Source of the DNA: an uncultured Roseobacter sp. | Lineage (GTDB): Bacteria; Pseudomonadota; Alphaproteobacteria; Rhodobacterales; Rhodobacteraceae | Direction of reading: 5' to 3' | NCBI GenBank assembly: GCA_947488305.1 | Contig: CANKZM010000006.1 | Location: 248,001-312,000 of the forward strand | Length of the DNA: 64,000 nt | Shown: one piece after another, positions 25,061 to 55,284 of the stretch | Position numbering within the stretch: position 1 is the stretch's first letter | Layout of the letters: every line of letters starts with the position of its first letter | Program-made: the position numbers and the translations under genes | Notes under the pieces: model-generated | The model's database searches: none | The model's input: the letters and a program-made list of their open reading frames with translations, nothing else | Told to the model about the DNA's origin: nothing

Positions 25061-25102
25061 CGCAAACATCAGTGCGGCCAGGCGCTGCAAGGAGATTCTT
25101 GG

Positions 25103-25915: not shown

Positions 25916-26062
25916 CATTTCAGGCAGGCACTAAAGAACTCCTTCATGGGCACGTTAGGTGGGGTTCAGCCGCCGCTCATCTTTCTTAAGTGGGTTAGTG
26001 GTTTTGTCGTATGAGTTATCCAGACGACATTCTGGCAGCTACATCCCGCTTTGCTGCCGCTA

Positions 26063-26221: not shown

Positions 26222-26431
26222 TAAGAAAGGCGTTCGCGCGCCTATTTTGACACGACTTCCTGCGCCAGCAACACGTTGTTTTTCCACAGAATCGGCGGAG
26301 AGCAGTCATTCGCTGCAGCAGCGCGACGAATAGGATGAACGGCAAGAAGAAGTCATTCGCCTTGTTCGAAAGCTATTGGACATATGAAGTGGTAGCCTGG
26401 CTGCCAGTCAGATAGAAGCAAAGGAGTTGCC

Positions 26432-27115: not shown

Positions 27116-27141
27116 TCGGGAATCCTGTACGGTCCAGGCGA

Positions 27142-28104: not shown

Positions 28105-28191
28105 AATGATCCTTCAAGCAAGCAGTTGGCCCACCATATCTTTTGTGTCAAAACAGCTCAAACAGGCTAAGACTTGCGCCACGAGTAAGAC

Positions 28192-29130: not shown

Positions 29131-29236
29131 ATGATCGATGCCACGAGAAACGTAGCAAACTTCTTGAATCCGGCTGCTTTCCTTTGAAGTGTCCGACCGG
29201 CCGAACCAAATTCCCAAATTCAGAAACTGGTTATCA

Positions 29237-30097: not shown

Positions 30098-30151
30098 CGC
30101 TGAGTAATTTTGGTGATAAGTTTCGGGAAGGCAAACTAGTCAGATGTTCAT

Positions 30152-30919: not shown

Positions 30920-31178
30920 GGATGGAGTGTAGTCAATCAAATCTGTCCCCGATAGCCTTTCCGACAATAAGACCAATGTCTGCTTTCGGAAAGCTGCGCT
31001 TCAGCGTTCGACAACGTCAGAAACGGCAGGTCTGGGCCGAACATTATCTCAGTTCGTCCTCACGCTCCCGCAGCAGAGTCACCAACTCACCGGACGCCTT
31101 GCTCTTGTTCTTCCTTGGCCAAGACCATTAGGGATCCGCTCTGCTCTGCAATGAATCTCGCAAGCGCTGTATCGGAAG

Positions 31179-31329
31179 GTGAAAGCTCTGCTGCGCATGG
31201 AGGGCTGGAGGGTTAACCATAAGAAGGTTGAACGTTTATGGGGCGAAGAAGGTCTGTAGCTGCCGCATCGGCATAAGAAGCGACGGCGGCTCTATCCTAA
31301 AGACAGTTCGGTCAACCTCAGATGTTGAG
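31179..31329 (+). pseudogene. IS3-family transposase fragment with an internal stop
   Basis: VKALLRMEGWRVNHKKVERL, then WGEEGL, a TAG stop at 31257-31259, then LPHRHKKRRRLYPKDSSVNL match the HTH_21 region upstream of the DDE domain in IS3-family OrfB. The DDE core is absent. The piece before it (31130-31178) reads as a decayed continuation. The rest of 30920-31508 has no recognisable gene. Confidence 0.75.
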
Positions 31330-31508
31330 TGCCCTCCTGAGAGGTGCAAGTAAGGTTCTGTCAGATTTCGTTTGCCATGGGATGCCCAAAGTGGCCACAA
31401 GAGTTGCCTAAATCGAAAATTTCAAGCTAAGGTTGGGTAGATGAAGGCTGTGATTGTTCAAGTCTTTCATATTTTTAAGTGCTTATGAACTGTCTAGGGG
31501 TGGAATTG

Positions 31509-31871
31509 ATGAAGTTGGAATTTGAACTCCATGGAAATTCAACAAAAGAACAGGATGTCGCGGATGCTAGAGACTTGCTGACCTGGCTCAAGGCCTCGCG
31601 CATTCAGACTGTAGAAGACCTGTCGCTAAAAGAAATACCACCCCAACCAGGCGAAATGGGCCCAACTGTTTTAGCCATCATCGGTGCTATTCTTGGAGCA
31701 GAGGCCACAGTTGAGTTAGTTAAGCAGGTTTTCTCATGGTTGGAAGCGAAGAATAAGAAGATCGAGATATCAGTGAACCGAGGTGGCGAGCAGGTGACTG
31801 TAAAGTCAGACAACCTGACGCCGGAAGAGCTAGGCCGTGTGGCCGCGACTTTGGGTTTGGGAAGTGATTGA
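31509..31871 (+). CDS. EACC1-like effector-associated component
   Basis: From ATG 31509 the protein has 120 residues: an N-terminal alpha/beta part, a Gly/Ala-rich hydrophobic helix TVLAIIGAILGAEATVELVK (residues 53-72) continuing into QVFSWLEAKNKK, and C-terminal strands (KIEISVNRGGEQVTV). This plan is that of EACC1, the small constant component encoded next to caspase-, trypsin- or nuclease-type effectors in bacterial conflict systems. Its stop codon overlaps the start of the caspase gene (TGATG), which matches that pairing. EACC1 is thought to be an adaptor; no enzyme activity is expected. Confidence 0.75.
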   Translation: MKLEFELHGNSTKEQDVADARDLLTWLKASRIQTVEDLSLKEIPPQPGEMGPTVLAIIGAILGAEATVELVKQVFSWLEAKNKKIEISVNRGGEQVTVKSDNLTPEELGRVAATLGLGSD

Positions 31872-33580
31872 TGCTATCCTTTCAACCTGGCAGCAAGGCA
31901 ATTCTGATTGGTACGTCGATCTCGGCGTCAGACCCTGAGAACCTACCAGATATCCCCCAAGTGTTGACCAACTTGGACGATTTTCGGGAAATCTTGTCAG
32001 ATGTCGCGGTTGTTGGTTTGGAGCCTGAAGACATCGAGGTCGTCGCAAACATCGATTCCAGGGAAGGGTTTCTGAAGAAACTCAAAGATATCGCGCAATC
32101 TGCAAAGGATACACTTTTAGTATACTATTGCGGGCATGGGCTATACGGGGACGCAAAGGAGCCGCTCTACTTTTGTACAAGCGGAACGACTTCTCATGAC
32201 AAAGAAATTGATGGTGTGCCAATATCCGCTGTCAAATCAGCTATCGCTGCATCATCGGCAAAGAAACGAATTTTCTTGTTGGACTGTTGTTATGCAGGAC
32301 AGGCAATTGAAGGAGCTATGGACGCTGTTGACGGTGTCGAAGCTCAGCTCGATGTCGAAGGCACTTATGCGATAGGCGCTGTGCCAAGAGATAAGAAGGC
32401 AATTGCAGAACCAGACGCTCGAAATACAGTGTTTTTTGAGCACTTCAAGGAGGCCATAAGTTCCGGAGTCGAGAATGGAAGGAATACGGTCTCGATTGCA
32501 GAACTGCACCAAGAGACAGAGAAGTCAATTTCTAGAACTGCGAAGTACTCACTTCCCGTAAAGAGAGTATGGGAGGATGGTGATAAGTTTGAGTTTTGTA
32601 TCAATCAGTTCAATAGCTCAAAGCTGACCAAAAAAGATATCGAAAAGATCATTGAGGCACGTTTGCAAGGGATTGTCGCAAAGAAAACCAAAGGTTTCAA
32701 AAGGTATATCTTTCCATCTCTAGTTGGAGCAGGTGCTATAGGTGCAGTCACAGCTATTGCAGGGCTTGTTTGGCTGAGCAGCTTATCTTCTAAACACACA
32801 AGTCTTCACAGTAACGTAAGTGATATTTCCAGCAATGTCGGAGAGCTGGACGGCAGTGTTAAGTCGCTATTTGAATCGGATACGACGCAATCCACGGTTT
32901 TGGGTGCCATTAGTGATACAGTGAATGGTTTTACTCAGACCCTGGAGACCCTTGTAGGGTCTGACAAGGAAAAAAAAGCACGCATCAATCAACTAGCGGG
33001 TGCGGTGGTTGAGCCCGATGCTCAAACGGACTTTAGCCTATTTCGCGTGAATACAGATTTTGGTCAAGATGACGACACGGTAAGTCAGTTAAGGCTGGTT
33101 CTTCAACCCGAGCAGTTCCGAAGAATTAACTTGCATCAGTTTAAAGGTGAGGAAGATCAGGTATTTACATACATTCAAAAAACCTCACATCGGATAATGT
33201 ATCGAGCTGGGTATAAACTGCATCTGTACGTACAACCTGAGCGTAGAAATCCTTACAACCGTGAACTCTATGACGTACAGGAAAACGAGGTCACATATGG
33301 CATCAGTGTGGCGGGTGGAAGACCGCAGGGCTTTGATCCTACGAACTCGAACCGATTAAGACGGCATTTTGACTTCACCCAAGACGCTTGTGCTCACCTA
33401 GCGGATGAAGAAGGCGAGTGGGATTATATTCCGATAAGACTTTGTTTTGGAGGCAGCGACGATAGTAGTCCCTGTAGCAGCGGCACAGGCGTTGACCGGA
33501 AGACACAGTTTGAATTTAGACTTACTGCGGTTCTAGAAAAGTCGCTCGAAGCAGAAGAGGTTTGCAAGGGTGAAGAATAA
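31871..33580 (+). CDS. Membrane-anchored caspase-like protease
   Basis: The 569-residue protein (ATG 31871, coupled to the EACC1-like gene) begins with a C14 caspase domain. GSKAILIGTS is the first strand, VYYCGHGLY holds the catalytic His (residue 89) and FLLDCCYAG the catalytic Cys (residue 140 by alignment with DxCxxG of metacaspases). A basic stretch KKTKGFKRY precedes one membrane helix at about 280-303. After it comes a heptad-like Ser/Val/Leu region (about 305-365), likely coiled coil, then a beta-rich C-terminal domain with several Cys (DACAHL, RLCFGG, SPCSSG). By the positive-inside rule the protease is cytoplasmic and the C-terminal domain periplasmic. This suggests transmembrane sensing that triggers proteolysis. 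Confidence 0.88.
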   Translation: MLSFQPGSKAILIGTSISASDPENLPDIPQVLTNLDDFREILSDVAVVGLEPEDIEVVANIDSREGFLKKLKDIAQSAKDTLLVYYCGHGLYGDAKEPLYFCTSGTTSHDKEIDGVPISAVKSAIAASSAKKRIFLLDCCYAGQAIEGAMDAVDGVEAQLDVEGTYAIGAVPRDKKAIAEPDARNTVFFEHFKEAISSGVENGRNTVSIAELHQETEKSISRTAKYSLPVKRVWEDGDKFEFCINQFNSSKLTKKDIEKIIEARLQGIVAKKTKGFKRYIFPSLVGAGAIGAVTAIAGLVWLSSLSSKHTSLHSNVSDISSNVGELDGSVKSLFESDTTQSTVLGAISDTVNGFTQTLETLVGSDKEKKARINQLAGAVVEPDAQTDFSLFRVNTDFGQDDDTVSQLRLVLQPEQFRRINLHQFKGEEDQVFTYIQKTSHRIMYRAGYKLHLYVQPERRNPYNRELYDVQENEVTYGISVAGGRPQGFDPTNSNRLRRHFDFTQDACAHLADEEGEWDYIPIRLCFGGSDDSSPCSSGTGVDRKTQFEFRLTAVLEKSLEAEEVCKGEE

Positions 33581-34658
33581 ACTAATGAGCCTTTTGACTG
33601 TTGCGGCACTGTCTTTTGCGGCTCCAGCAAATGCAGAGACGGTTTGGAGTAGTCTGTATCCAGGGGTGGACGTGGCCCGGCAACAGTCATTTACTTCGAG
33701 TGAAGATGAAGAAATACGGTGGTCTGGCATCCGGATTAGAACTGGCAATGCGCAGATTGAGCTTGTTGAGACACAGCAATTCTTAGAGCGGCGAATTTCA
33801 TCAGAGGCTGGTGGGAAGTTAGTCTCTGGTGATCAATCAGGTCTTATCTCATCCTTTGGATACTCGCTGGATGAAATATGGGCTGAGGTGCAAGCAGACT
33901 CTGATGTCAAAGCAGTGGTACCGATTGGCTACGTCGAGGAAAGTGGAAACCCTCAAGTCGCAGGTTTCTTCAAAAGACTTGGTATTGTTCGCAACCCTTT
34001 GATGAATGCACCTAACTTAACGGCTGTCTTCTGTTTAAATGCAGAAGCGTTCAGGACCACTCGTAACCCTGAGCGAACAATAACTGAAACGGGTGTAGCC
34101 CCATATCTGTTCGATGTTAAAACGACGGAGACCCGGCAATACCAGTACGTGCAGGGCCTGGATCGTCTGGAGCTTCAGGAACACTATGGGGACGGCAGAA
34201 TTCGCCAATACTTCAACTCGTGCCGTGACGCGATACAGGTAGGGCCCAAGGTAATTTTCCCTCGTCGCCAAGAACTACTGGCAGGACAAGAACCAAGCCT
34301 TTCTGGTACGCGCCGATCTGTGGATACGGACTATTTTCGTGGAGGACGGAATGCATATCGTACCTATTTTCTTTGGGACCTACGAGGCGACATCACGATA
34401 ATCACAACGCATACTCGTTCATCCTTAGACGTTGTTTGGGAGTTGGCGTCTAACCGAGACTTCTTTCGGGGGAATGCGAGTTGTCGGGGAGCGGATGAGC
34501 TAAGCCAAGCATGTGAATACTGGGCGGTCGCACTTACGTCTTTCGAGCACAGCGGTCTCATTTATAGAGACGCTGCGGGTAACCGTGTTCCATTGCGTCG
34601 AACAGACTCAGTTATCCCTGCGGCTCTGCTGATTAGGGTTAAGTCCGGCTCCGATTGA
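33570..34658 (+). CDS. Secreted protein of the caspase operon, family unknown
   Basis: GTG 33570 overlaps the caspase gene by 11 bp and gives a classical signal peptide: KNK, then MSLLTVAALSFA, with cleavage after PANA near residue 22. ATG 33585 would lose the positively charged part. The 340 mature residues are soluble and beta-rich. Four Cys (AVFCLNAEA, NSCRDA, ASCRGA, QACEYW) could form two disulfides. I recognise no family. The three-gene operon places it in the periplasm, where the caspase protein's C-terminal domain lies, so it may be its ligand, inhibitor or co-sensor. That is inference. Confidence 0.75.
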   Translation: MKNKLMSLLTVAALSFAAPANAETVWSSLYPGVDVARQQSFTSSEDEEIRWSGIRIRTGNAQIELVETQQFLERRISSEAGGKLVSGDQSGLISSFGYSLDEIWAEVQADSDVKAVVPIGYVEESGNPQVAGFFKRLGIVRNPLMNAPNLTAVFCLNAEAFRTTRNPERTITETGVAPYLFDVKTTETRQYQYVQGLDRLELQEHYGDGRIRQYFNSCRDAIQVGPKVIFPRRQELLAGQEPSLSGTRRSVDTDYFRGGRNAYRTYFLWDLRGDITIITTHTRSSLDVVWELASNRDFFRGNASCRGADELSQACEYWAVALTSFEHSGLIYRDAAGNRVPLRRTDSVIPAALLIRVKSGSD

Positions 34659-42656: not shown

Positions 42657-43514
42657 TTAAGCCACCTTCCGTTCGAAGGCGACAGGGCTTTTCCAGCCCA
42701 GTGCTGAGTGACGGCGGCGCGGATTGTAGAAGCCGTTTATGTACTCGAAGATCGCAATCTCGGCTTGTCGGCGCGTTTCCCATGACCGCCGCCAGATCAG
42801 CTCAGCTTTGATGGTCTTGAAGAACGTCTCGACAGCGGCGTTATCGTAGCAATTACCCTTGCCGCTCATCGAGGCTTTGAAGCCGTGCTGGCGCAGGACT
42901 TTCTGGTAATCGTGCGAACAATATTGGCTGCCTCGGTCGGTATGATGAATGCAGCCTTTGGGCGGCGAGCGGAATGCTATCGCCATGTTCAACGTGCGGA
43001 TCGCCAGGTCCCGCTTCATGCGATTGCTGACGGCCCAACCGATCACACGCCGGGAATGCAAATCAAGGATCACAGCCAGATACAGCCAGCCTTCACGGGT
43101 CCAAATATAACTGATGTCACCGGCCCATTTCTGGTTTGGCGCATCTGCCGTGAAGTCACGATCCAGTAGGTTCGGTGCGATGTTGAACTTGTGATCGCTG
43201 TCTGTCGTCACCTTGTGTTTACGGGTCCGTACGACAGATATGCCGTTCTGACGCATCAATCGGCCAACACAGCGGTGGCCCACATCCAAGCCAATCTCTT
43301 TCAGCTCTTCTGTCATCCGCGGCCGGCCATAGCTGCCCAGGCTGAGCCGAGACTGTTCCTTGATATGGGCCAGCGTCACCAGATCAGACCGTTGTCTACG
43401 GCTAGCAGGGCGGCTGCGGAAGGCACGCAACCCACGTGCGCTTACGCCGACAACGTCGCACAACCGGTTAGCGGGGAAATGGCCTCTGTGCTCTTCGACA
43501 AACCTAAACTTCAT
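42657..43514 (-). CDS. IS3-family transposase OrfB
   Basis: The 285-residue protein contains the DDE catalytic residues: WAGDISYIWT, HHTDRGSQYCS and NAAVETFFKTIKAE. The N-terminal HTH_21 region is GRPRMTEELKEIGLDVGHRC. Its ATG overlaps the orfA stop (ATGA). The OrfAB fusion transposase is expected from a -1 frameshift at A-AAA-AAG in orfA. Confidence 0.95.
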   Translation of the reverse strand: MKFRFVEEHRGHFPANRLCDVVGVSARGLRAFRSRPASRRQRSDLVTLAHIKEQSRLSLGSYGRPRMTEELKEIGLDVGHRCVGRLMRQNGISVVRTRKHKVTTDSDHKFNIAPNLLDRDFTADAPNQKWAGDISYIWTREGWLYLAVILDLHSRRVIGWAVSNRMKRDLAIRTLNMAIAFRSPPKGCIHHTDRGSQYCSHDYQKVLRQHGFKASMSGKGNCYDNAAVETFFKTIKAELIWRRSWETRRQAEIAIFEYINGFYNPRRRHSALGWKSPVAFERKVA

Positions 43515-43786
43515 TGCTTTAGGCCCGCGAAGAACTGGGTGGCCTTTTTTAGGATTTCCCTCTCCTCCTTGAGAAGCCGAACCTCACGCCGAAGCCGATC
43601 ATTCTCTTTGGCGAGGTCCAAATCCTCTTTCGACACCATAGCCATGTCTCGATGTGCTGTGACCCATTTGTTCAGCGTCGACATGCCAACACCCAGATCA
43701 TCAGCCACTTGCCTACGCGTTAGCCCGCTTGTCAGCGCGATACGCACCGCATCCTGGCGGAATTCGTCCGTCCGTTTCAGTCCCAT
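43511..43786 (-). CDS. IS3-family transposase OrfA
   Basis: The 91-residue helix-turn-helix protein (FRQDAVRIALTSGLTRRQVA) ends in a leucine zipper (LAKENDRLRREVRLLKEERE). The codons CTA AAA AAG in the stretch ILKKATQ form the slippery heptamer A AAA AAG at 43545-43551 (complement). A -1 shift there reads through GGC CAC CCA into orfB. Confidence 0.95.
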   Translation of the reverse strand: MGLKRTDEFRQDAVRIALTSGLTRRQVADDLGVGMSTLNKWVTAHRDMAMVSKEDLDLAKENDRLRREVRLLKEEREILKKATQFFAGLKQ

Positions 43787-43849
43787 AGTCAGTCTCCTTT
43801 GTTGCAGTAAATGCTATCAAAGGAGCGGCATCAAACCGCGACAGGTCCA

Positions 43850-44117: not shown

Positions 44118-44579
44118 TCAGATTTCAAGAAACTTGTCTTTGTTATCATCGAAGAGCCACTCTGCCAGAGAATCCAACGACTTCTCGCGTTTGGCGCTTT
44201 TCCTTTTTTTCTGCTCGACCGAGCATTCCCATATCACAGCAATTCGATAATCTGCATCTTTCGCGGTTTCTATGTTGAGTCTGTCCCTTGCGATGTTGGC
44301 GGCGAATTTTGCAGCCCAAAATGCATCAGAATCTCCTCCAACTTTTGCGGCTTTGGCACAGCCAGAATGTTGGTGCCAAAAGCAACCATGAACAAAGACA
44401 ACCGCCTTTCGTCCTTTAAAAACAATGTCGGGTGAGCCGATCGATTTTGGCCCATGCAAACGATAGCGTAGACCGCGCGCATAAAGACCTCGACGGACAG
44501 CAAGCTCAAGTTTCGTGCCCTTACTTTTGTTGCTCCGCATGACTTTGCGGCGCTGTTCTACCGTTAACGGATCAAGCAT
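44118..44579 (-). CDS. vsr: Very short patch repair endonuclease Vsr
   Basis: From ATG 44579 the protein has 153 residues. Residues 14-22 (MRSNKSKGT) are the Vsr signature. SPDIVFKG holds Asp51, and VHGCFWHQH holds His64 and His69, the same positions as in E. coli Vsr. Cys66 and Cys74 in GCFWHQHSGC could bind zinc. Vsr nicks T:G mismatches left by deamination of 5-methylcytosine. It is divergent from the C5 methyltransferase gene with 74 bp between starts, the classical pairing. Confidence 0.95.
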   Translation of the reverse strand: MLDPLTVEQRRKVMRSNKSKGTKLELAVRRGLYARGLRYRLHGPKSIGSPDIVFKGRKAVVFVHGCFWHQHSGCAKAAKVGGDSDAFWAAKFAANIARDRLNIETAKDADYRIAVIWECSVEQKKRKSAKREKSLDSLAEWLFDDNKDKFLEI

Positions 44580-44653
44580 GGGATATTTGTCCCTGGTTTT
44601 TCCCCAACATCCTGGTAGAACATTTGCTGTTAGCCTAGGAACAATTCGAATTG

Positions 44654-46210
44654 ATGAAAGCACCTTATCAGATTGTCGATCTCTTTGCTGGTCCTGGAGG
44701 TTTGGCGGAAGGGTTCTCTTCCGTCGTCTCTGGTGGCGAACGGAAATTTGACATCGCACTTTCCATCGAAATGGAGACCGCTGCGCACCAAACGCTGACT
44801 CTTAGGTCTTTTACGCGTCAATTTGCTTGGCGAAGGTTGCCCAAAGCTTACTACCGATACATTGCCGGGGAGGTTACCCTCAAGGAACTGCAGCAAAAGT
44901 TCCCTGAAGAGTGGGGGGCAGCGACCCGCGAAGCACTTTGCCTAGAGCTTGGCTCAAAGGATTCGGCAAAGCTCATCCTCCCGAAGATTGACGCAATCCG
45001 TGAGCGTTCAGATGGGAGAACGGTTCTCATTGGAGGACCACCCTGCCAAGCATACTCATTGGTCGGGCGCGCGAGAAACGCCGGCATTGACGGGTATGTG
45101 CCTGAAGATGATGGTCGCCACTTCCTGTATCGAGAGTATATCCATATTCTTGATCGACTGAGGCCTGCTGCATTTGTGATGGAAAATGTTAAGGGGATCC
45201 TTTCCTCTTCAGTAGGTGGCAACCAAATCTTCCAACGTATTCTCGATGATCTTGCGAATGTTGGTCGGGAGGATGGTGGATATAAGCTTTTGGCGCTTGC
45301 TCCCAATGATGAATCTGAGAATTATAGTACCCGCAGTTTATTGCCCCGTGACTTCATAGTGAGGGCAGAGAAGCACGGAGTTCCACAGGCACGGCATAGA
45401 GTATTTGTCGTTGGCGTCAGAGCAGATATCGCAACAAATATGGACATCCCGAATGACGGTCAGTTTCTTTCGAGACTGGCGGAAGTGTCCGTCCGCCAAT
45501 CGATCGGTAGTCTACCCAGGCTTAGAAGCGGTCTGAGCAAGCAGGACGACGAGATGTCTTGGCGAAGAACAGTTTCGGAAGCGGCATCCGAGTTGGGTAA
45601 ACTAGGGGCAAAGCGGAATGCTTCCGAGACGGTCAAGTCTGCTGCGAAGAGGATTAGGTCGCTTTCTCCAAGCATCAAGCGCCCGAACACTCCAATGCCA
45701 AGGGGCAGCCTGAAGTACCACACGAGAGAGCTAGCACAGGGACTCAAAGGCGATCTTAGGAAGTTTATTGTAGATCCCAAGCTTATTGAACTGTCTCATC
45801 ATGAGACGAGGGGCCACATGAAAAGTGACCTCGCGAGGTATCTCTTCTGCGCGGCATTTGCGGAGGCCAATTTGCGTCCACCAAGAGCCTCCGACTTTCC
45901 TGACGAACTTGCACCAAATCACCAAAGCTGGAGCACGGGCAAATTTGCAGATCGATTCAAGGTTCAAACTTGGGATGGACCTTCGACAACTATTACAAGT
46001 CATATCTCAAAGGATGGGCACTACTACATCCACCCGGACCCGGTTCAATGCAGAAGCCTCACTGTACGGGAGGCTGCCCGGCTTCAGACATTTCCAGACA
46101 ACTACGTTTTTCTGGGCAATCGAACACAGCAATACGTGCAGGTGGGAAACGCGGTGCCACCATTCTTGGCGAAGCAGATTGCCCAAGTGATGACCGCAAT
46201 CTTGCCCTGA
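44654..46210 (+). CDS. DNA (cytosine-5-)-methyltransferase
   Basis: The 518-residue enzyme (ATG 44654) shows motif I LFAGPGGLAEGF (residues 10-21), the catalytic PC motif GGPPCQAYS (127-135), MENVKG (motif VI, about 177-182) and the C-terminal GNAVPPFLAKQIA (motif X) with TVREAARLQTFPDNY (motif VIII/IX side). It is longer than small type-II enzymes because of an extended region between motifs I and IV and a large target-recognition part. It methylates C5 of cytosine at an unknown site. It converges on the DptH-like gene with 15 bp between stops. Confidence 0.95.
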   Translation: MKAPYQIVDLFAGPGGLAEGFSSVVSGGERKFDIALSIEMETAAHQTLTLRSFTRQFAWRRLPKAYYRYIAGEVTLKELQQKFPEEWGAATREALCLELGSKDSAKLILPKIDAIRERSDGRTVLIGGPPCQAYSLVGRARNAGIDGYVPEDDGRHFLYREYIHILDRLRPAAFVMENVKGILSSSVGGNQIFQRILDDLANVGREDGGYKLLALAPNDESENYSTRSLLPRDFIVRAEKHGVPQARHRVFVVGVRADIATNMDIPNDGQFLSRLAEVSVRQSIGSLPRLRSGLSKQDDEMSWRRTVSEAASELGKLGAKRNASETVKSAAKRIRSLSPSIKRPNTPMPRGSLKYHTRELAQGLKGDLRKFIVDPKLIELSHHETRGHMKSDLARYLFCAAFAEANLRPPRASDFPDELAPNHQSWSTGKFADRFKVQTWDGPSTTITSHISKDGHYYIHPDPVQCRSLTVREAARLQTFPDNYVFLGNRTQQYVQVGNAVPPFLAKQIAQVMTAILP

Positions 46211-46225
46211 TCGGTTTCTCCTGGC

Positions 46226-49200
46226 TCAGACCTTTGCGCACTGAACTCGAGTCAACACCCCGCTTTCTTTAAAGAAGGCATCCCCTTTTCCAGTAAGAGA
46301 TTCCGCTCCCGGATCATCCATGATAACACGGCTTTCCGTTGCGCTTTTCACCCGCAATGCCAACTGCGCTGGAAGGTTCGACCTCAGGTTGGTGCTGATG
46401 ACCGATGCGTCCGGCTTCTGAGTAGCTATGATGACGTGAATGCCTGCTGCCCGGGCTTTCTGTGCAAGCCGTTTCAAGTGTCCTTCAATCGTCTTCTTAG
46501 TCTCGGGATCCGACGTAAGATCAGCATACTCGTCTAGAACAATGACCCATCTTGGTATGCGCTCATCAAGCGACGCTTGTTCGTTGAACTGGCCAAGAGT
46601 CTTTACCCGGACAGTCTTGAACCGCGAATAGCGAGTCTGCATTTCGTCCACAGCTTTTGACAGGATTTCTATAGCATCCTCATCGTCCCACCCGATCTCT
46701 CCATCCACATGTTCGGTGTTCGAGAGATGCTCGAGTTCCGTGCCCTTGGGGTCTATTAGTTGTAGCCTTACTTCTTTTGGGGAATAGTGTTCTGTCATAC
46801 CTGCTAGGATAGTGTTCAGTGCCTCTGACTTTCCGCTTCCCGTTGTCCCACCGATCAGAAGATGGGGCGAGTTCGACGAAGTGAAGTCTATTTCCACCAC
46901 GTTGCCGAGACGATCTTCGCCGATTGGAACAGTCAGTCCAAATTCGGGGCGGTTCCACCGAGACCAAAGATCTGGTGCATCTACGAAATACCGATCCTCA
47001 TCCAACTTGGGCACGTCAATGGTCACATAGCCCTTGTCGATATCGAAACGCATCTCTTGGGAGGCCTCCAGCTCGAGAGCAAGTTTCAGTGCGTCGCGCT
47101 TCTCCGAAAGCTTCCTTGGATCTACTCCCTTTCCGGGGCGAATTCTGAAGAGAATGGATGCGGGGCCCTCGACAGCGGGCTCAACCGCTGCATCAGTCTT
47201 GTTCACACTAATGCCGTACTGCCCGAACGTGTCGAGTATCACTTGGTAACGCCTATCAAGTTCGGCTTTTCCCAGGTGACCACGCACGCCAGCGCGATGT
47301 CGGTCCGTTGAAGGACTGGCGCTTGCAGTAGGTTTGTTTTGGGAAATAAGGCTCTCACCTACCGTGGAAGCGGGAACTCGGTTCGTCGGCTGCGCCCCCT
47401 GTGTGTTCACTTCATTCTTTGACGCGTCAGCCGTTGTCTCATTTTGCCCCCCTCCTTTTTCCTCGGCAACCGGCTTTGCGGAAGATGAGAGGATCAGGGG
47501 TGCGGCGGATCGGTCGAGCAGTGCGCCGCCCCCGGTTTGGACAATAGTCACTCGGGTATCGGCGTCGTATTGATAGCTCTCCGTTTCTTTCATTCGAGAA
47601 TATTCGCAAATTGAATAGAGTCCGGCGACGTTAACGGAAGCGAAATCTCCCTCGCGGAATAGGCTTTTAATTTCCCCAGACACCCTTGAACGCTTAAGTG
47701 TTTGCTCCGATCTTGCGGCATTTGAGATGAAGACGGCATCTTTGCTAACAGTATCGACCGCAGACAGGAGTGTGTCCCTCCAGAGTTGCCCATCCATTGG
47801 GTCTTCGTCTTTGTTCCGTGGGAGAACTGCGTCGAACATTTTTAGGGTCTTGCGGACTTGTTCTGCCCCGTGTGAATCGTATCCGGATCGCCTCAACTTA
47901 CTTTCGATCACCAGAAAATCGACTTCCAGCCCTCTATCAGTAAGGTTAAGCGACATTCTGAGCATGTCGGCCCGCATCGAATTCACCGAAGAAAACCACT
48001 CCGGATGCTCGTCGAGTGATATCCAAGCGATAAACCCGTCTTCGGCGGTGGTTGGTAGCTGACGGTCCGCCATTTGCCGCGCAATACTAAGTCCAAGGAT
48101 TTCTTCAGTGACACGGGATATGCCGAGCGCATCAAGCGTCAATCTAGGAGCTATCTGCCTCGCTTCCTCGTATATCTTTTCCGCAAGCTGATGCGCCTGC
48201 TGCTTCGCCATTTCCTGTCGACCGATCGAAGTGGCAATTCTACTGAGTTTTCGTGTCAGCCGATCGACGATGAATTCCTTACCAGCGTTGGAGGATACAA
48301 TCAAAGTGAACAATCCGCCTGGTCCGACGCCATCACGCAATGAGAGGACCTCTGGACGCGTTTCCAGTTTCTCAATCTGTTCCCTGGTAATGTGTCGTTC
48401 TACCGTAATAACCCAGTGCGAGAGTTTGTGCAGCATACCAAAAAATCGCGCTGTATTTTGAAAGTTTATCCGGATGTCCATAAAATCCGTCGCTTGCGGT
48501 CGATCCGCGGCCACTGGGTTTTTTCGCTCGTGCCTGACGGCAAGGGTCGACCAGTCCGAAAGAGCGGTGTCGGGCATTTTGGGCCTCAATGAGACCCACA
48601 GAGCGGAGGAGCCGGTTCCGGAAGCGATATAAGTTGGCTCGTCGAGTAGTGGGTCGAATCTACCCATAGAAGTCGTTTCGTCCTCGGTCTTTGCGTCTGT
48701 GCTGATGCTGTCATCCAAAAATTGAGGAACGATCGCTAGATCGCAGATCAAACCGCGAAGTGCCGCATCAGCATCCTCCCTAACCAACCTCAAATCGTGA
48801 AGGTTGAGTTGCACCGGCGGGAAGAGAGCACCCTCACCAGCGAGGCGGTTGTCCGTGTCGACAAGTTCAAACTGGCGAGCCGCCTCGTCCCAACAATCTT
48901 TGGGAGCGACCAGTTCAATTGTCATCGACAGGTTCTTGAATTCGCCTTTTCGCACACTCTGTACCAAGTCTGCAGGAAGGGCGCTGGCACCTGCCGTAAC
49001 AACAAGGATCCTCAGTCCATCGGCCTTGTAGGGATGAGCATGCAGATATGCTGTGATCTGCCGGACTATTTCTGTGACCAGGCTCGCATGAACCCTGTCT
49101 CCTGAAGACGTGCCTCCGGACAAGGCGGCCGTCTGGAAATTCTCGGTCCAACCCCGTTCGCCACCCGCGAAGAGGATGTGCCCATCGGCGGCAGTGTGGA

Positions 49201-51355
49201 TTGAAGGCTGCTGATGCGGGGAAAGTCCTTGGATCCAATCCAGATAAAGGCTCTCACCGTTTTCATTCAGTTTTAAGGAACCTTCGATCGCTTCAGCCGC
49301 AAGCTGGGAGGATTTTGTGAGATAGGCTGCAATCCATCTCAGCTTCAGTGGGTGGGACTGCAACATGAGGACGCGATCGTTGTCAAATTCCTGCACACAG
49401 TCTGCGTTAAGAAATTCGATCATACCGTCTGGCGCTTCACCGTCAGGCAAAAAAATGTCCCGTGCTTCTCCGAGAAGCCCTGACCAATTATCAAACACAT
49501 CATTCAATAGTGTTGAGGAAATTCCCTCGCTTTCCGCGTCGGCTCTGAAATCCTCGCGAATATCGACCAGCCGGGAAATCATCGGATGCTGTAGAATGCT
49601 ATCCCGGATTGGGCGTGACCTTCCATTTGCGAAGGGCAAAAGGCGACGAGCAACCTCGTCAATCCATGCCCCTCCACTTCGATTCGGGGGCGCAAAAAGT
49701 TCTGCCGTCACTTCACATCTGTCTTCGCCACACACGGATATCCAAAACAGCGCGAGGTAGTGTAGATCATCCGGGAACCATTCAATGGCGACTTCGCTAT
49801 CCAGCTCCGATCCATCCTCGCAGTTAACAAGTGCGAACTCGAGGGGAACTGGAAGCCATACCGTTCCATCATCCTCTTCTGACGATCCGCTGTCAGAAGC
49901 TTCAGTATCTGGATCAATTTCCTCCTTGAGTGGAGGAGCTTTAGTCTGCGTCGTGAGCAAGTCACCTACTTCGAGCGCGACATTTCCGGGGCCGTCTTTC
50001 AATGAACCGTGGATTTCGATCAGTGATTTTCCATACAAGAACGCGAAGAGGCCAAGAGCCGGTGCATGCCGTTCAGTTATGCCCGCGCCGGGACGCATTG
50101 TGATCCGGAACTCGCCACTCTCGAGATCATTTCGCGACCGAAAGTCCGTGGCAACCTGCGAGAGCTTGATAAGAGGATTCTTGATTGTCTCGGCCGCCGG
50201 GGCGGCCAGTTTCTCAACCATTCTAAGCGTTTGCTTCGAAAGCAGGTCTTTTAGGGGCAACGCGCTGGAGCTTTCAGGTTCACTTTCGAGGAAGTTGCGC
50301 GCTTCTTCGGCGGAACGGTTGCTTAGACCGAGTTCAACGGAAAGTCCGTCGAACTCAAGTTTCCTTTGGGGATCGTTGTCCACGATTTCCTCGGCCACTC
50401 GCTGACCTAGGGGTAAGCCCTTCACATCCTTGCCAAAGACTTGTTCGAACACTCTGTACGGGATGCGCTTCCGCCTCTCGCTAGAAGGGTCGAGACAGTA
50501 TTCGGAGCATTCCCTTCGCCAGTGAACCTGGGTGTCAGGCTCGTACTGCTCACCGGTTTCATCCACAAATTTTGTTCGTAAGCAATCCTGCGCCGTCTTT
50601 TCTGAGTCCAGTTCTGATGAAGGCGACGCTGCGAGTTCCGATCGCAGCAAATTTAGAGAGAGGCGACGAGGTGCACCACTGGGGTTTGCACGCCATTGTT
50701 CATCGGGGAACATATCGAGGTGCACGAAGCTTCTGCCAACCAGTGCTGCTATCTCATCTGGCGAGTAAACATTACCACTCGAAACCAATTCATCTGCTGC
50801 AGCGAGCACAAATCTGGCAAACATTCTCACTGGTACGGCCCGTCCGGAGCTAGTTAGTCCACTAAGAACTTCAACGAGGCGATCTCGAAACAATTCGTTG
50901 CCGTCGGGGTTAGGAGAACCTGCCGATAACAGCGCTTGACGCACCATCTCCTCCGGAACAATGAACACGCCTTCCTCGTCAAATGTACCGTCAAGGAAGT
51001 TCACGTCTCGCAGCGTAAAGAGGTTCTTGAGCCCTTGCTCATCGCTTTCAACCTTCGTTTCTATATAGACGAGTCCGTTTTCATTGTTGTTTCGGTAATA
51101 GGTGATGGAGTGCTCAGGATTTGCTCTGAACTCCTCTGGGAAATCCTCATGCGAGTCACTGGCAACAAGAAGCTTGACGCTGCCAAGGCCTTGGCCACCG
51201 CTGCGATCTCGCCAAACTTGGAGGAACTCCAGCGCCTCATTTCTCATCAGATTCTTCAGTCTGAACGAATTTCGGCTGGAGCCCTCATGGGCCAAGAAGC
51301 TGCGCGCGACAATCTCAAATGCCGTACCGGCAATGATGCTTTCAATTCTGCTCAT
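46226..51355 (-). CDS. FtsK/HerA-type ATPase, DptH-like restriction protein
   Basis: This 1709-residue protein is mostly unassigned except for its C-terminus: an FtsK/SpoIIIE-type motor with LLIGGTTGSGKSEALN (Walker A, residues 1502-1510), LQLIDPKGTELEHL, WVIVLDEYADL (Walker B, about 1603-1613) and IHVIIATQKPD. The size of about 1700 residues and a motor at the extreme C-terminus match DptH of the Dnd (phosphorothioate) restriction module. The central part contains long acidic and Ser-rich stretches. Its role is presumably DNA translocation or cleavage of unmodified DNA. It follows the DptG-like gene after 13 bp. Confidence 0.7.
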   Translation of the reverse strand: MSRIESIIAGTAFEIVARSFLAHEGSSRNSFRLKNLMRNEALEFLQVWRDRSGGQGLGSVKLLVASDSHEDFPEEFRANPEHSITYYRNNNENGLVYIETKVESDEQGLKNLFTLRDVNFLDGTFDEEGVFIVPEEMVRQALLSAGSPNPDGNELFRDRLVEVLSGLTSSGRAVPVRMFARFVLAAADELVSSGNVYSPDEIAALVGRSFVHLDMFPDEQWRANPSGAPRRLSLNLLRSELAASPSSELDSEKTAQDCLRTKFVDETGEQYEPDTQVHWRRECSEYCLDPSSERRKRIPYRVFEQVFGKDVKGLPLGQRVAEEIVDNDPQRKLEFDGLSVELGLSNRSAEEARNFLESEPESSSALPLKDLLSKQTLRMVEKLAAPAAETIKNPLIKLSQVATDFRSRNDLESGEFRITMRPGAGITERHAPALGLFAFLYGKSLIEIHGSLKDGPGNVALEVGDLLTTQTKAPPLKEEIDPDTEASDSGSSEEDDGTVWLPVPLEFALVNCEDGSELDSEVAIEWFPDDLHYLALFWISVCGEDRCEVTAELFAPPNRSGGAWIDEVARRLLPFANGRSRPIRDSILQHPMISRLVDIREDFRADAESEGISSTLLNDVFDNWSGLLGEARDIFLPDGEAPDGMIEFLNADCVQEFDNDRVLMLQSHPLKLRWIAAYLTKSSQLAAEAIEGSLKLNENGESLYLDWIQGLSPHQQPSIHTAADGHILFAGGERGWTENFQTAALSGGTSSGDRVHASLVTEIVRQITAYLHAHPYKADGLRILVVTAGASALPADLVQSVRKGEFKNLSMTIELVAPKDCWDEAARQFELVDTDNRLAGEGALFPPVQLNLHDLRLVREDADAALRGLICDLAIVPQFLDDSISTDAKTEDETTSMGRFDPLLDEPTYIASGTGSSALWVSLRPKMPDTALSDWSTLAVRHERKNPVAADRPQATDFMDIRINFQNTARFFGMLHKLSHWVITVERHITREQIEKLETRPEVLSLRDGVGPGGLFTLIVSSNAGKEFIVDRLTRKLSRIATSIGRQEMAKQQAHQLAEKIYEEARQIAPRLTLDALGISRVTEEILGLSIARQMADRQLPTTAEDGFIAWISLDEHPEWFSSVNSMRADMLRMSLNLTDRGLEVDFLVIESKLRRSGYDSHGAEQVRKTLKMFDAVLPRNKDEDPMDGQLWRDTLLSAVDTVSKDAVFISNAARSEQTLKRSRVSGEIKSLFREGDFASVNVAGLYSICEYSRMKETESYQYDADTRVTIVQTGGGALLDRSAAPLILSSSAKPVAEEKGGGQNETTADASKNEVNTQGAQPTNRVPASTVGESLISQNKPTASASPSTDRHRAGVRGHLGKAELDRRYQVILDTFGQYGISVNKTDAAVEPAVEGPASILFRIRPGKGVDPRKLSEKRDALKLALELEASQEMRFDIDKGYVTIDVPKLDEDRYFVDAPDLWSRWNRPEFGLTVPIGEDRLGNVVEIDFTSSNSPHLLIGGTTGSGKSEALNTILAGMTEHYSPKEVRLQLIDPKGTELEHLSNTEHVDGEIGWDDEDAIEILSKAVDEMQTRYSRFKTVRVKTLGQFNEQASLDERIPRWVIVLDEYADLTSDPETKKTIEGHLKRLAQKARAAGIHVIIATQKPDASVISTNLRSNLPAQLALRVKSATESRVIMDDPGAESLTGKGDAFFKESGVLTRVQCAKV

Positions 51356-51368
51356 ATCATTATTCCGA

Positions 51369-52667
51369 TTACGAATCTGTTCTTGGGCTGACCATTCGCG
51401 TTGCGTCGGAGTACTGCGTAACCAGCCCGGCTGCGATCATCTGGAGAGCAAGATGTTCTTCATTCCCCTCGAATATGCTGGCGTCAATTGAGTTCACGAG
51501 TCCCGACGCCTCGGCGGCTCCACGACCGACCGCAATTCCAAGGCGATCATAAAGAACATCGGTTACGTATCGCTCGAATGGCATTTCCGTACCAGTTGGG
51601 ATGGTCGCAAGCACAACCATCTCCAGTGCGTCAACGGAGAGGGTGAAATGCTTGCGGCCGCGCCAAGCATTGAGAAACCCGTTCGCCGCGGCGGTAGCCC
51701 AGAAAAAACTGCGGATCTTGTTGCGCTGAGCCTTCGGCAGTTTGGGGTTTGGTGCAGTCTTGTCCACCGCAGCAAGAATATTGCCCAGAACTTCCTGAAG
51801 GCAACGCTGCGATACACGGCGCAGCTGGGGATTATTGCCGCCGCAATCGCAGATGATTGGCGCATCCTCTAATCCGAGGAAGTTTCTTGAGCGCCTGTTT
51901 TGCATCAGAACCAGCCACAACCCTGTCCATCCCATCACCGCACGGATCTGAGAAACGGATGTCGCGCCCGTCTGCTCAAGGATATTGAGAATACCGTCGC
52001 GGAAAACATCTTCGAAGCTGTCAATGTTGGCCCGAGTCGCTTTTTCAATGCCATCCATTACCGGCTTTTCGTCGCTCTTGCTCTGATCATTCAGAAATCC
52101 GGCGAGGATTTCCAACGGGCTCTTAAGAGTTGCGACATACAGTTCCTTGAAACCTTCCCTTATACGTTCAAGACGAGCAGCGTTACGGTCAGATCTGAGG
52201 ATCTTGAAGGCGAGTGTGCCGCCACCGCGCAAATAGAGACGCTCAAGGCCGATGGTACTGTAGCGTTCTCTTGCGTCCCAGTGGATAAGAGAGGGCGTGT
52301 ACGGGAAGAAGTGCGCCCTTGACCATTTTGGTTCTTTGGTTCCACTGGGAATTTCCAGCTGAAGGCATCTGAGGAGCTCCCTCAGAGTCTCTTCCGCGGA
52401 AGTGTCGTCGAGCAGGACTTCACGACGACGGGCATCATTTTTGAAGCTGCCATCCCAAACCAACCGTCTGCCAAAATCATGTGACCGGCGTGTGATTTTG
52501 ATGCTGTCTCCCGAAGGTAGTGGATCCTCGAATTCACCGCAGTAAACGAAGTTCAAAAGTTCGAGGCCTGGATAGTGCCCGGCGGCGTCAAAATCGAGTA
52601 CGCCTCCAAACAATTCTCGCGAAACTTCGGGACCCTTAGGAATTGTGACTGTATTTTCTTCCTGCAT
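51369..52667 (-). CDS. DptG-like protein, middle gene of the restriction trio
   Basis: The 432-residue protein starts at ATG 52667, 17 bp after the DptF-like stop. It is mixed alpha/beta, without a signal peptide or membrane segment. A Cys-rich CDCGGNNPQLRR (near residue 275) and a hydrophobic C-terminal helix NEEHLALQMIAAGLVTQYSD are the main landmarks. I cannot recognise it from motifs alone; the DptG assignment rests on size (DptG about 440) and position between DptF-like and DptH-like genes. Confidence 0.55.
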   Translation of the reverse strand: MQEENTVTIPKGPEVSRELFGGVLDFDAAGHYPGLELLNFVYCGEFEDPLPSGDSIKITRRSHDFGRRLVWDGSFKNDARRREVLLDDTSAEETLRELLRCLQLEIPSGTKEPKWSRAHFFPYTPSLIHWDARERYSTIGLERLYLRGGGTLAFKILRSDRNAARLERIREGFKELYVATLKSPLEILAGFLNDQSKSDEKPVMDGIEKATRANIDSFEDVFRDGILNILEQTGATSVSQIRAVMGWTGLWLVLMQNRRSRNFLGLEDAPIICDCGGNNPQLRRVSQRCLQEVLGNILAAVDKTAPNPKLPKAQRNKIRSFFWATAAANGFLNAWRGRKHFTLSVDALEMVVLATIPTGTEMPFERYVTDVLYDRLGIAVGRGAAEASGLVNSIDASIFEGNEEHLALQMIAAGLVTQYSDATRMVSPRTDS

Positions 52668-52684
52668 CTAAATGCTAATCCTTT

Positions 52685-54535
52685 TCAGGCTATGCCAACT
52701 TGGATGGTGTTGCCATCAATCGAAATTGTTTGGGATCGACCATCCCGGACCAGATCTATTTGGTCGGAAGTTGCCCTGCTGGATTGCGCAATTCTGCCTA
52801 GAAAGCTTGCAACACGACGGATGTCATGTTCGTAGAATTTCGTTGGCACATGGCCCGCTGCCGCTCTTAAGATGCAGTCGAACATCATGAGATCCAGCAA
52901 TAGATCCTGTGGTTCCTGCAGCTGACCTTGGATTCTCAACACAACATGTCTGTCGATCCAATCAACAGTTTGGTTTACATGGTGAGATATCTCATCGCTG
53001 GGCCCCCATTTTTCGGAGAGTCTTTTCAAGTCGACATCGGCAGATTTGATCTTGGCCGCAAGTATGGCGGTTCCCGACATTGATCTGCCAAATGCGGGAT
53101 CAACGAGGTGGAGCGTGGGCGATTGCTCGGCAAACTGAAGACCTTGGATATGGTGAAGGCCCGCTATAATCTGCCGTTTTAGAAGGGCTCTGGCATGGCT
53201 ATCGAGGTCGCCATGCACGATTTGGAGGAATTCGGAGCCATATGGAAACCCTAGGTGGGACATATCGAGGTTGGCGCTGCCAACATTGTCAAAGTAGGCC
53301 CGTCTCCGAAGCGCCCTGACAACTTTCGTAACGTTTTCGGCTTCGTCGGCTCGTTGTTTCTTGTTGCGGGGATCCCCGATGATCTCGTCAATTCCGTCTG
53401 CAGCGTCAATTATATTCTCGTTTGAAGTCGCAGGAGCGGGAAACTGCAGGTCCAGCTGACCATGCCCAAATATGTCCTGTTGATTAATAATTCGCTCATC
53501 GATTTCGCGAATGGCGCGTCGGCCCGGATCAAGTTTTGGAAGTTGCTGCATCAGGGGCAAGCTCTTGAGCTGTTCCCTGGAAAGCGTATGAGGTGGAGCG
53601 AACGCAAGATTGTAGAACGCATAGGATTGTTGCCAGCCTTTCCGTCGGCCGCGTCTCATCCTGTGGACATCTTCGCACTTCAATCCGCCAGTGAGCAAAT
53701 AGGCGAGTGCCATAAGCATGTCGCGAATGGTGATGACATAGCCTATGCGCTCGAGAGTCGCAAAAAGTAGTCGCAACTTGGCCTTTCTGGCCGCTGCATC
53801 TTCCTCCGCGACACGCTCGGAAAGCATTTCTCTATTTCGGTTTATCGGACAGGTACTGCGCGCGTCGCAGTCTGCGCAGCTTCGCCATCTTGAGCCTGAA
53901 GTCCAGTCGCGGATTGCGCGATCACCCAGAGACTGTCCATCGTCTCCGGCTGCAATGGACTGGTGGTTTAGGTTCACGATGTGAATCCGTCCGTCCCGAC
54001 TGGCTCTTCCATCTACAAAGGACGTTTCGAAACTCTTCAGAATATCAGAGCAGTTTTGTCCTGCAGCATCCGAAGCCAGGACGGCGCGAAGTCGCCCCTC
54101 GTTTGCGCAGATAATAGTGGTGACCTTACCATCACTTGCCCTTTCAACCAATTCGGCTGCTTTTTCAGTCGCTAATTCAGAGATGTCCTTGAAAATGCGA
54201 ACAGCGCCAGTCGCAGGCGTGCCATCCTTCGCTGATATGATCTGTTCGCCTTTGCAGGACTCATTGATGAGTTTTCTTGCCTCCTCTTCATTGAAACCTA
54301 AAAGCCCCTCAATTACCCTCCTGCACAAGTGGGTCTTGCCGTGGCCTGCGTCACCAGTCAGGACAATCACATGCGCACCGCTCTTGGCAGCCTCGAGCAC
54401 ATAAGAGTATGCCGCTGTATCCAGATTCAGCGAGTCACTGGCGACTTGATACTCCTCGTAAATCTGATCATGCGACGGATCGAATGGGAGGAATCTGGCC
54501 ATTCTATAGACATGCTGGTTGCTGACTTCAGGCAA
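52685..54535 (-). CDS. P-loop ATPase, DptF-like
   Basis: The 616-residue protein starts at TTG 54535, supported by GGGAG seven bases upstream; ATG 54502 has no such site. HVIVLTGDAGHGKTHLCRRV holds Walker A (GDAGHGKT, residues 61-68), and IICANEGRLR (about 141-150) follows as in AAA-type ATPases. A three- to four-Cys cluster WRSCADCDARSTCPINRN (217-234) may bind zinc. The rest is helical. DptF is the ATPase of the Dnd restriction module. The likeness here is in order, size and the ATPase plus Cys-cluster plan. It is the first gene of the trio. Confidence 0.65.
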   Translation of the reverse strand: MPEVSNQHVYRMARFLPFDPSHDQIYEEYQVASDSLNLDTAAYSYVLEAAKSGAHVIVLTGDAGHGKTHLCRRVIEGLLGFNEEEARKLINESCKGEQIISAKDGTPATGAVRIFKDISELATEKAAELVERASDGKVTTIICANEGRLRAVLASDAAGQNCSDILKSFETSFVDGRASRDGRIHIVNLNHQSIAAGDDGQSLGDRAIRDWTSGSRWRSCADCDARSTCPINRNREMLSERVAEEDAAARKAKLRLLFATLERIGYVITIRDMLMALAYLLTGGLKCEDVHRMRRGRRKGWQQSYAFYNLAFAPPHTLSREQLKSLPLMQQLPKLDPGRRAIREIDERIINQQDIFGHGQLDLQFPAPATSNENIIDAADGIDEIIGDPRNKKQRADEAENVTKVVRALRRRAYFDNVGSANLDMSHLGFPYGSEFLQIVHGDLDSHARALLKRQIIAGLHHIQGLQFAEQSPTLHLVDPAFGRSMSGTAILAAKIKSADVDLKRLSEKWGPSDEISHHVNQTVDWIDRHVVLRIQGQLQEPQDLLLDLMMFDCILRAAAGHVPTKFYEHDIRRVASFLGRIAQSSRATSDQIDLVRDGRSQTISIDGNTIQVGIA

Positions 54536-55284
54536 TCGACTGCTCCCAATTGCGATCGCGTTTCTTTGAACGCCTAACTGCGCCGCCGCGCTTGTTCATA
54601 GCGTAGCATATCCTCTGTCGCTTGCAACTGAGGCGAGAGTGTGAAGCCTTTACGGAACTATGGAGATTAACGGGCCCTATGAACTCTTGTTAAGGCGTGG
54701 TTTCACTTCGGACTTTAGGGACTGCCGCCATGTGAATTTCCGAACCGGAATTGAGGTAGTCGAAGAGGCAAGCCGATATGAAATTTTGGCCGCATAAATA
54801 AGCACTGCCAGGCTTTCATGACAGAGCCGCTCATCTTTCTTGACCAAATGCTGACGTCAGTAATGGACCTAGCAACAACCAAAGTGTTGCCTCGGCCACG
54901 TCCGTTTCGCCCTTGCTGGACGCCGTGAATATCTCCACATAATATGCAAAGAGCGGTGGGGTGGAGAGGCCATAGTGAGAGACTTGTTCGATTCCAGAAC
55001 CCGGAATCATATAAATCTTTCAAGTACTTGAAATCTCAAAGCTAGCTAATTAGTGGTATAATAGGGGGTATGCAATACTATTATTTTTTGAAATGTTGTT
55101 TTTTAACAGTTTGTTGAATATCTAGTATGTTTCCGCCCCCGGCACCAATTAAGATAAATTTATCCATATTTATCAAATGTATAGGCTAACAAAGTTGCTG
55201 TTGGTCCCCCTCGCAGTCCCCTTTTGACACGGCCATACCCGCTATTTCACCGTCTCCCCACTTTTCTAGAAAATGGAGATGGAA
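54536..55284. other. Right end of the island: about 750 bp without a supported gene
   Basis: The stretch begins with the promoter region of the DptF-like gene and becomes AT-rich near 55020-55200. It contains the repeat of the tRNA-Phe 3' end (55131-55147). One frame on the minus strand (54715-55023) is open but has no ribosome binding site or family features. Confidence 0.5.
55131..55147 (+). repeat. Candidate attR, imperfect copy of the tRNA-Phe 3' end
   Basis: TTCCGCCCCCGGCACCA matches 16848-16865 except for one G missing from the GGG run. It lies in an otherwise AT-rich stretch. A copy outside the functional tRNA would be free to decay, which could explain the missing base. A chance match of this quality is unlikely in 64 kb. 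Confidence 0.7.

Follow-up and report, generated by a model that had tools for sequence, protein, structure and literature searches.

An SspFGH-type gene trio linked to a C5-cytosine methyltransferase and Vsr: a candidate 5-methylcytosine-based restriction-modification system in an uncultured Roseobacter and its relatives

Background

By which mark might an SspFGH-type restriction module tell host DNA from foreign DNA when no phosphorothioate genes accompany it? The question is raised by a window of 64,000 nucleotides from an uncultured Roseobacter sp. (assembly GCA_947488305.1, contig CANKZM010000006.1, positions 248,001 to 312,000 of the forward strand; coordinates below count from the first letter of this window unless another locus is named), in which a trio of genes, here F, G and H, adjoins genes for a C5-cytosine DNA methyltransferase and for the very-short-patch repair endonuclease Vsr. 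According to PMC8092258, SspFGH damages DNA and slows growth in cells that lack its modification, the damage is relieved by sspBCD and not by dndBCDE, and Southern blots revealed no breakdown products of phage DNA. Because SspFGH harms hosts devoid of the modification genes, a resident FGH module without phosphorothioate would need another protective mark, for which, by analogy, the linked C5 methyltransferase would be the obvious source. We consider it likely that the locus encodes a restriction-modification system whose restriction arm, an SspFGH-type ATPase-nuclease-translocase, would damage DNA lacking the 5-methylcytosine (5mC) of the host.

Gene content of the locus

All five open reading frames of the block were recovered, including the three co-directional genes of 616, 432 and 1709 residues described in a first-pass annotation of this DNA:

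52685-54535, minus strand: sspF-like gene, 616 amino acids (aa), P-loop ATPase (PADLOC SspF, 2.7e-44)
51369-52667, minus strand: sspG-like gene, 432 aa, helical, probably a DNA-binding or adaptor protein (PADLOC SspG, 2.9e-14)
46226-51355, minus strand: sspH-like gene, 1709 aa, predicted nuclease and FtsK-type DNA translocase (PADLOC SspH, 2.7e-90)
44654-46210, plus strand: C5-cytosine DNA methyltransferase, 518 aa, DrmMII-like (Pfam, 4e-43; PADLOC DrmMII, 8.4e-93)
44580-44653, no strand: divergent intergenic region of 74 bp between vsr and the methyltransferase gene
44118-44579, minus strand: vsr, very-short-patch repair endonuclease, likely start at 44579 (TIGR00632, 4.9e-33, over the cut-off)

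The gaps within sspF-sspG-sspH measure 17 and 13 bp, and the methyltransferase gene converges on sspH across 15 bp, with vsr and the trio on the minus strand. The methyltransferase frame spans 44651-46210 with its ATG at 44654, and the vsr frame, which opens at 44759, is over-long, the homologs beginning at the ATG at 44579. The PADLOC match of this Vsr reaches 1.2e-20. The catalytic motifs of the methyltransferase are intact, and the motif residues are invariant in 12 aligned sequences.

The first-pass annotation had equated the trio with DptFGH. The likeness in gene order and size stands, but the profile similarity does not: searches against the DptF, DptG and DptH models gave no meaningful match, the DndF model reached 13 bits over 21 P-loop residues only, and no NCBIfam DptFGH family was matched, so that this name has to be abandoned. 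Instead, judged by sequence, the trio is a distant SspF/SspG/SspH set. The other features named there are borne out, namely the neighboring C5 methyltransferase and Vsr (Pfam and TIGR00632 matches above), the P-loop and Cys cluster of the first gene and the motor at the C-terminal end of the last, as is the absence of dnd genes as far as dndC is concerned, the only dnd gene searched for, which is missing from the host genome.

Linkage to C5 methyltransferases

We identified relatives in one scan of the contigs of 84,980 species with an SspF alignment and two peptide patterns, which yielded 16 loci; with that of the window they make 17. F is intact at 15 of them, and F, G and H are all complete at 14. 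The hosts are Roseobacteraceae and other Alphaproteobacteria, Marinobacter, Alcanivorax, Luteibacter, a metagenome-assembled genome (MAG) of Alteromonadaceae, several Burkholderiales and a Desulfobacteraceae MAG; the family thus spans Alpha-, Beta- and Gammaproteobacteria in addition to this single MAG. A C5 methyltransferase lies within 10 kb of FGH at 14 of the 17 loci, 12 of these enzymes belonging to the same long subfamily as that of the window and the other two being proteins of 343 aa (L018) and 321 aa (L019). Based on 25 C5 methyltransferases (matches joined by hand) in 68 Mb, with the fragments L026 and L027 dropped, such a neighbor would be expected by chance at 0.16 of 15 loci, a figure that serves only as a guide because the loci are related by descent and hence not independent. 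The methyltransferase of the trio is the sole C5 methyltransferase found in 8 of the 17 genomes (matches again joined by hand), and Vsr is encoded in 12 of the 17 loci. When open reading frames of at least 80 aa in about 10 kb around FGH were compared, no sixth gene was conserved in more than 3 of the 17 loci. The trio is accordingly kept together with a C5 methyltransferase and usually with Vsr, without phosphorothioate genes, which supports the central idea of the first-pass annotation, and the genome survey clearly does not show homologs that always lack a methyltransferase or Vsr.

Two incomplete loci deserve description. At L021, a Vsr fragment lies beside F at the contig edge, and the same genome carries a methyltransferase of the same subfamily paired with Vsr on a separate 10-kb contig. 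At L026, F has an internal deletion and no C5 methyltransferase was found in the genome, which would match the notion of 'no methyltransferase, no working FGH'; as this is the contig edge of a MAG, we give it no weight. Among viral contigs, 81 pattern matches included no confirmed relative. Plasmids had no match for SspG, six distant partial matches for SspF, and 805 records for SspH, none of which reached 60% identity or covered 80%.

Vsr acts in the repair of T:G mismatches left where 5mC has been deaminated, and the interpretation that fits best is that Vsr is the repair partner of the methyltransferase rather than a component of restriction. We also considered Vsr and the methyltransferase as one co-inherited cassette and rejected this because their distances are uncorrelated (r 0.14, p 0.19, 11 loci).

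Other nucleases were encountered beside FGH modules. In Marinobacter pelagius (L018, 18220-21002), a restriction enzyme of the AspBHI type, the 343-aa C5 methyltransferase and Vsr stand next to FGH; we take this enzyme to be 5mC-dependent, and a methyl-dependent nuclease adjoining a C5 methyltransferase is an odd pairing. Proteins matching PDLC03656 ('methyl-directed Type IV') recur beside FGH modules of differing kinds (L016, 8454-9551, weak; L021, 8807-10063, weak; L051, 15976-16848, strong).

Exchange of the methyltransferase

Replacement of the methyltransferase beside a retained FGH has happened at least once within the long subfamily; in addition, L018 and L019 have enzymes of other subfamilies. 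Across six close loci, identity is 69-84% for FGH pairs but 41-49% for 13 of the 15 methyltransferase pairs (67 and 81% for the other two). The clearest case is that of L020 and L022, which are sisters in the F tree (support 100/97) and share 89, 94 and 90% identity in F, G and H but 40% in the methyltransferase, with the methyltransferase-Vsr pairs on opposite sides of FGH. The approximately unbiased (AU) test rejects a sister relationship of these two methyltransferases (p 4.6e-7), and a single methyltransferase clade for L020, L022, L023 and L024 is rejected as well (p 1.0e-7). The methyltransferases of L014 and L016 are 81% alike, yet lie on opposite sides of FGH.

We looked in the pairs compared for a target-recognition domain of F, G or H that varies with the methyltransferase and found none; the one segment that does vary is a Pro/Ser/Glu-rich linker of H, the sole hypervariable part of FGH seen. 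Since no domain of FGH varies with the methyltransferase, the choice of target probably rests with the latter.

Phosphorothioate genes

As a marker of the Ssp modification genes we used DUF4007, which we take to be SspB. A survey of 398 genomes found 9 with any SspG match and 3 with a strong one; in all three strong cases DUF4007 is encoded at a distance of about 4-5 kb from a canonical trio, and the methyltransferase and Vsr models have no match within 20 kb of these three canonical trios. In the family described here, DUF4007 is absent from the genome of the window and from 16 of the 17 genomes overall (SspC and SspD were not searched for separately), the exception being G686, the genome of fragment L027, where it occurs on contigs C53 and C101, outside the L027 stretch. 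No genome of the 17 has a dndC over the cut-off; weak dndC hits were obtained in two genomes, and the dndC-like gene of one of them, G680, lies on another contig.

The F, G and H proteins

The F gene has the following features:

54533-54555, minus strand: TTG start of sspF with GGAG 7 bases upstream; the close relatives L013-L017 have the same TTG/GGAG spacing
54332-54355, minus strand: Walker A motif GDAGHGKT, residues 61-68
53849-53878, minus strand: cysteine cluster C220/C223/C229

The Walker A motif and the Cys cluster are invariant across 15 aligned F sequences. The start codon is ATG in more distant relatives such as L018 and L020; the conserved weak TTG start may keep the F ATPase scarce. 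No solved structure related to F by sequence was found. A tree of 23 F domains places all 15 F proteins of the family on one side of a branch (support 97/96; recovered in 96% of 200 bootstrap replicates), separate from canonical SspF as well as from the fused and HsdMS-linked F. The order among the F families is unsure because several branches are long, that of L048 above all, and the label 'MADS' given to L048 and L052 in this tree is based solely on F fusion.

SspG is rare: of 292 genomes from the same order, 3 have it, counting that of the window. The AlphaFold2 (AF2) model of G has a mean predicted local distance difference test (pLDDT) score of 83, and its best fold match in PDB is DndG (7exx) with E 0.058 and TM 0.22, a weak likeness of a predicted model that we take as a lead only. 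By sequence, a search for solved relatives of G gave only one match (E 0.67).

The H protein would combine a nuclease with a translocase, as follows:

47846-48133, minus strand: predicted PD-(D/E)XK nuclease core, residues 1075-1170 (E1084/E1085, D1130, E1151-x-K1153)
47270-47575, minus strand: variable Pro/Ser/Glu-rich linker between nuclease and motor, residues 1261-1362
47009-47269, minus strand: FtsK alpha-like region, residues 1363-1449 (Pfam FtsK_alpha, 0.0011, below the curated cut-off)
46412-46957, minus strand: FtsK/SpoIIIE motor, residues 1467-1648 (Pfam, 4.1e-33)

The putative catalytic residues E1084/E1085, D1130 and E1151-x-K1153 are invariant in 14 aligned sequences, and the D and E-x-K recur in each of 8 additional H proteins aligned, namely canonical SspH (L045-L047), MADS (L050, L051), an HsdM/HsdS-linked H (L049) and those of L048 and L052, two loci that are only partly typed. 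The AF2 model of this region (396 residues, mean pLDDT 66, scores under 50 in the first 110) displays the order helix-strand-strand-strand-helix with the signature residues in the right elements. The motif and the order of predicted secondary structure elements thus suggest a PD-(D/E)XK nuclease.

A proposed mechanism and its alternatives

We propose that the DrmMII-like methyltransferase marks host DNA with 5mC at its own target and that a complex of F, G and H attacks DNA lacking this mark, by analogy to the attack of SspFGH on phosphorothioate-free DNA. In this complex, F would be the ATPase sensor or regulator of the restriction arm, G would be a DNA-binding adaptor, and H would join a PD-(D/E)XK nuclease to an FtsK translocase in one chain. 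The methyltransferase would direct FGH as a subunit, as a bound partner or solely through its mark, and Vsr would mend the T:G mismatches that result from deamination of the host 5mC. If this scheme is correct, a common and easily mapped mark, along with exchanged methyltransferases, makes the question of self versus non-self discrimination by FGH testable.

Several observations weigh against this proposal. The visible flanks of L021, L026 and L027, which are cut by contig ends, contain no C5 methyltransferase, the genome of L027 has one C5 methyltransferase, which was not found in the L027 stretch, and the 16 relatives, coming from a single two-pattern scan, are not a full census. The methyltransferases of L018 and L019 belong to other subfamilies and adjoin, respectively, the AspBHI-type enzyme and an unassigned open reading frame, so that at these loci a resident restriction-modification pair could be an island neighbor. 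The methyltransferase data do not reject a single clade for these enzymes from the six close loci (p 0.14), and the distances of F and of the methyltransferase correlate (Mantel r 0.58, p 0.002, 11 loci), which together imply that exchange has not been constant. Vsr is missing from L019 and is represented in L023 by a weak stretch of 59 residues (E 0.002), and its divergence follows neither F nor the methyltransferase, a pattern that fits an accessory. Finally, a Foldseek search of PDB with the model of the H nuclease gave no match at E <= 0.001.

The main rival explanation, which we judge improbable while giving it more credit than the others, is that FGH is a standalone machine against invaders and that the methyltransferase and Vsr form a separate maintenance or solitary-methylation cassette sharing the island. 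Rakesh et al. 2024 (PMC10853773) argue that DndFGH acts alone and is commonly decoupled from modification genes, which also counts against our proposal; SspFGH, MADS and Vsr do not occur in the main text of that paper. The methyltransferase of the window being on the opposite strand, and the shifting position of methyltransferase and Vsr relative to FGH among the loci, point the same way. Such independence is, however, hard to reconcile with linkage at 14 of 17 loci against 0.16 of 15 by chance and with a methyltransferase that is the only C5 enzyme found in 8 genomes, that is swapped for another C5 methyltransferase rather than lost, and that has no equal in conservation among the neighbors.

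It is also possible, if unlikely, that the methyltransferase protein and not its mark restrains FGH, as an antidote acting by binding, with 5mC being a side effect. No region of FGH other than the low-complexity linker varies with the methyltransferase, and how FGH would read diverse marks is not obvious, both of which suit an antidote. Against it, the catalytic motif residues are invariant, three methyltransferase subfamilies are difficult to square with a specific protein-protein antidote, and the presence of Vsr at 12 of the 17 loci points to actual production of 5mC.

Still less probable is a modification-dependent FGH that attacks foreign 5mC while the host methyltransferase marks a different context. 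The recurrence of Type IV-like neighbors (the AspBHI-type enzyme in L018, weak mREase_IV matches in L016 and L021) would accord with such a function, but FGH of this kind would have no need of a linked methyltransferase, and the characterized SspFGH, as described in PMC8092258, hits unmodified DNA and is relieved by modification genes. That FGH works with phosphorothioate supplied by unlinked genes is scarcely credible and not supported, given that, against DUF4007 in G686 and the sub-cut-off dndC-like gene in G680, DUF4007 is absent from 16 of the 17 genomes, dndC over the cut-off from all of them, and canonical DUF4007 lies close to its trio.

Surroundings of the locus

The G+C content is 0.50-0.53 at 44-58 kb, compared with 0.55-0.60 at 36-44 kb and 0.55-0.58 past 58 kb, a dip that fits acquired DNA. 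IS3-family elements adjoin vsr both in the window (42657-43813) and in L018 (21123-21824). Apart from the FGH block, the window contains an apparent integrative island with other defense genes (16791-34658), which comprises tRNA-Phe and genes for the following proteins:

17006-18214: tyrosine integrase, following tRNA-Phe
19815-22676: VapE-like primase
29237-30097: Shedu-like SduA/DUF4263 protein
31868-33580: caspase-like peptidase

Comparison with known systems

No paper announcing a trio of the SspFGH type alongside both a C5 methyltransferase and Vsr came up in the literature covered (bioRxiv and most subscription journals lie outside it); PMC11090510, the one paper where Vsr, FtsK, methyltransferase and antiphage appear together, concerns other systems. 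Among classical systems, Type II restriction-modification has the pair of C5 methyltransferase and Vsr in common with the window, which has a three-gene ATPase-containing module instead of a single-chain Type II restriction enzyme, none being present among the 10 window proteins scanned. The link to DISARM class 2 is through the methyltransferase, which is closest to the DrmMII model (PDLC02649, 8.4e-93); DrmA, DrmB and DrmC are not among the window proteins scanned (10 + 6), and the genome was not searched for Drm genes.

DndFGH/DptFGH resembles the trio in gene order and sizes. Our reference for it is one genuine locus, L057 (533/434/1712 aa), TIGR03236 having a hit in 1 of 349 genomes. In hhalign comparisons with the single L057 sequences, a blunt test, nothing was obtained for F or G; for H, the one significant alignment with DndH covered the Walker B stretch of its motor (E 5.8e-4), that of the nuclease regions (H 1051-1202, DndH 1011-1176) being non-significant (E 0.026). 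PMC10853773 places the nuclease of DndH ahead of its HerA/FtsK motor, and one review (PMC12707154) calls sspFGH homologs of dndFGH.

SspABCD-SspFGH (Vibrio anguillarum FF-93 type) is closer: the trio has the same order, the window proteins match the SspF, SspG and SspH profiles, and Walker A in F as well as the C-terminal FtsK and D/ExK in H are shared. The family differs in having a C5 methyltransferase and Vsr in place of sspB and in its own branch of the F tree.

The third relative is MADS, typified by L051 (PADLOC mad2 to mad7), whose G and H are over the NCBIfam cut-offs for MAD7 and MAD8. There, the mad7 protein also matches SspG, the C-terminal part of mad6 is SspF-like, H resembles SspH and has the D/ExK signature as well as a P-loop motor, and base methylation is the presumed mark; L050 has mad3, mad5 and mad7 hits. 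Conversely, canonical SspG of L045 matches MAD7 (1.8e-12), and H of the window also matches the mad8 model, in the motor part only (8.1e-26), while G matches SspG and not mad7 in PADLOC. MADS differs in encoding a Type I-like methyltransferase (mad2), a specificity-like protein (mad5), mad3 and mad4, and in the kinase-like part to which its F is fused. No match to mad2 or mad5 was found among the 10 window proteins scanned (for the methyltransferase, among its best 25 of 58 families), nor does F of the window (616 aa) match a kinase, unlike MAD6 of MADS.

Two further loci were noted in this connection. L049 (6900-19533) encodes F, G, HsdM-like and HsdS-like proteins and then H, with no MADS kinase, and may represent another kind of FGH module, one with Type I-like modification. 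In L048 (4819-20000), FGH, whose F of 1377 aa has a long N-terminal extension, lies next to an SspC-like gene, with DUF4007 about 10 kb past H.

FGH modules, then, accompany phosphorothioate genes, Type I-like (presumably adenine) methyltransferases with specificity subunits or, in the family of the window, a C5 methyltransferase; on the best reading, a variant that would act with 5mC joins the phosphorothioate (Ssp) and base-methylation (MADS) versions. More tentatively, we suggest that SspFGH, the C-terminal part of MAD6 with MAD7 and MAD8, and the trio described here could be one modification-agnostic ATP-dependent restriction engine that evolution has coupled to marks of three sorts, phosphorothioate, adenine-type and C5-cytosine. 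In its 5mC version, an exchangeable methyltransferase would set both the marking and the restriction target, so that a methyltransferase of Type II style would command a translocating nuclease. According to a 2026 review (PMC12904381), MADS is one of the systems whose mechanism of restriction is unknown. A version reading 5mC would also tie Ssp, MADS and the family of the window into one kind, and the predicted nuclease signature shared by the H proteins supplies a candidate for the nuclease still missing from MADS.

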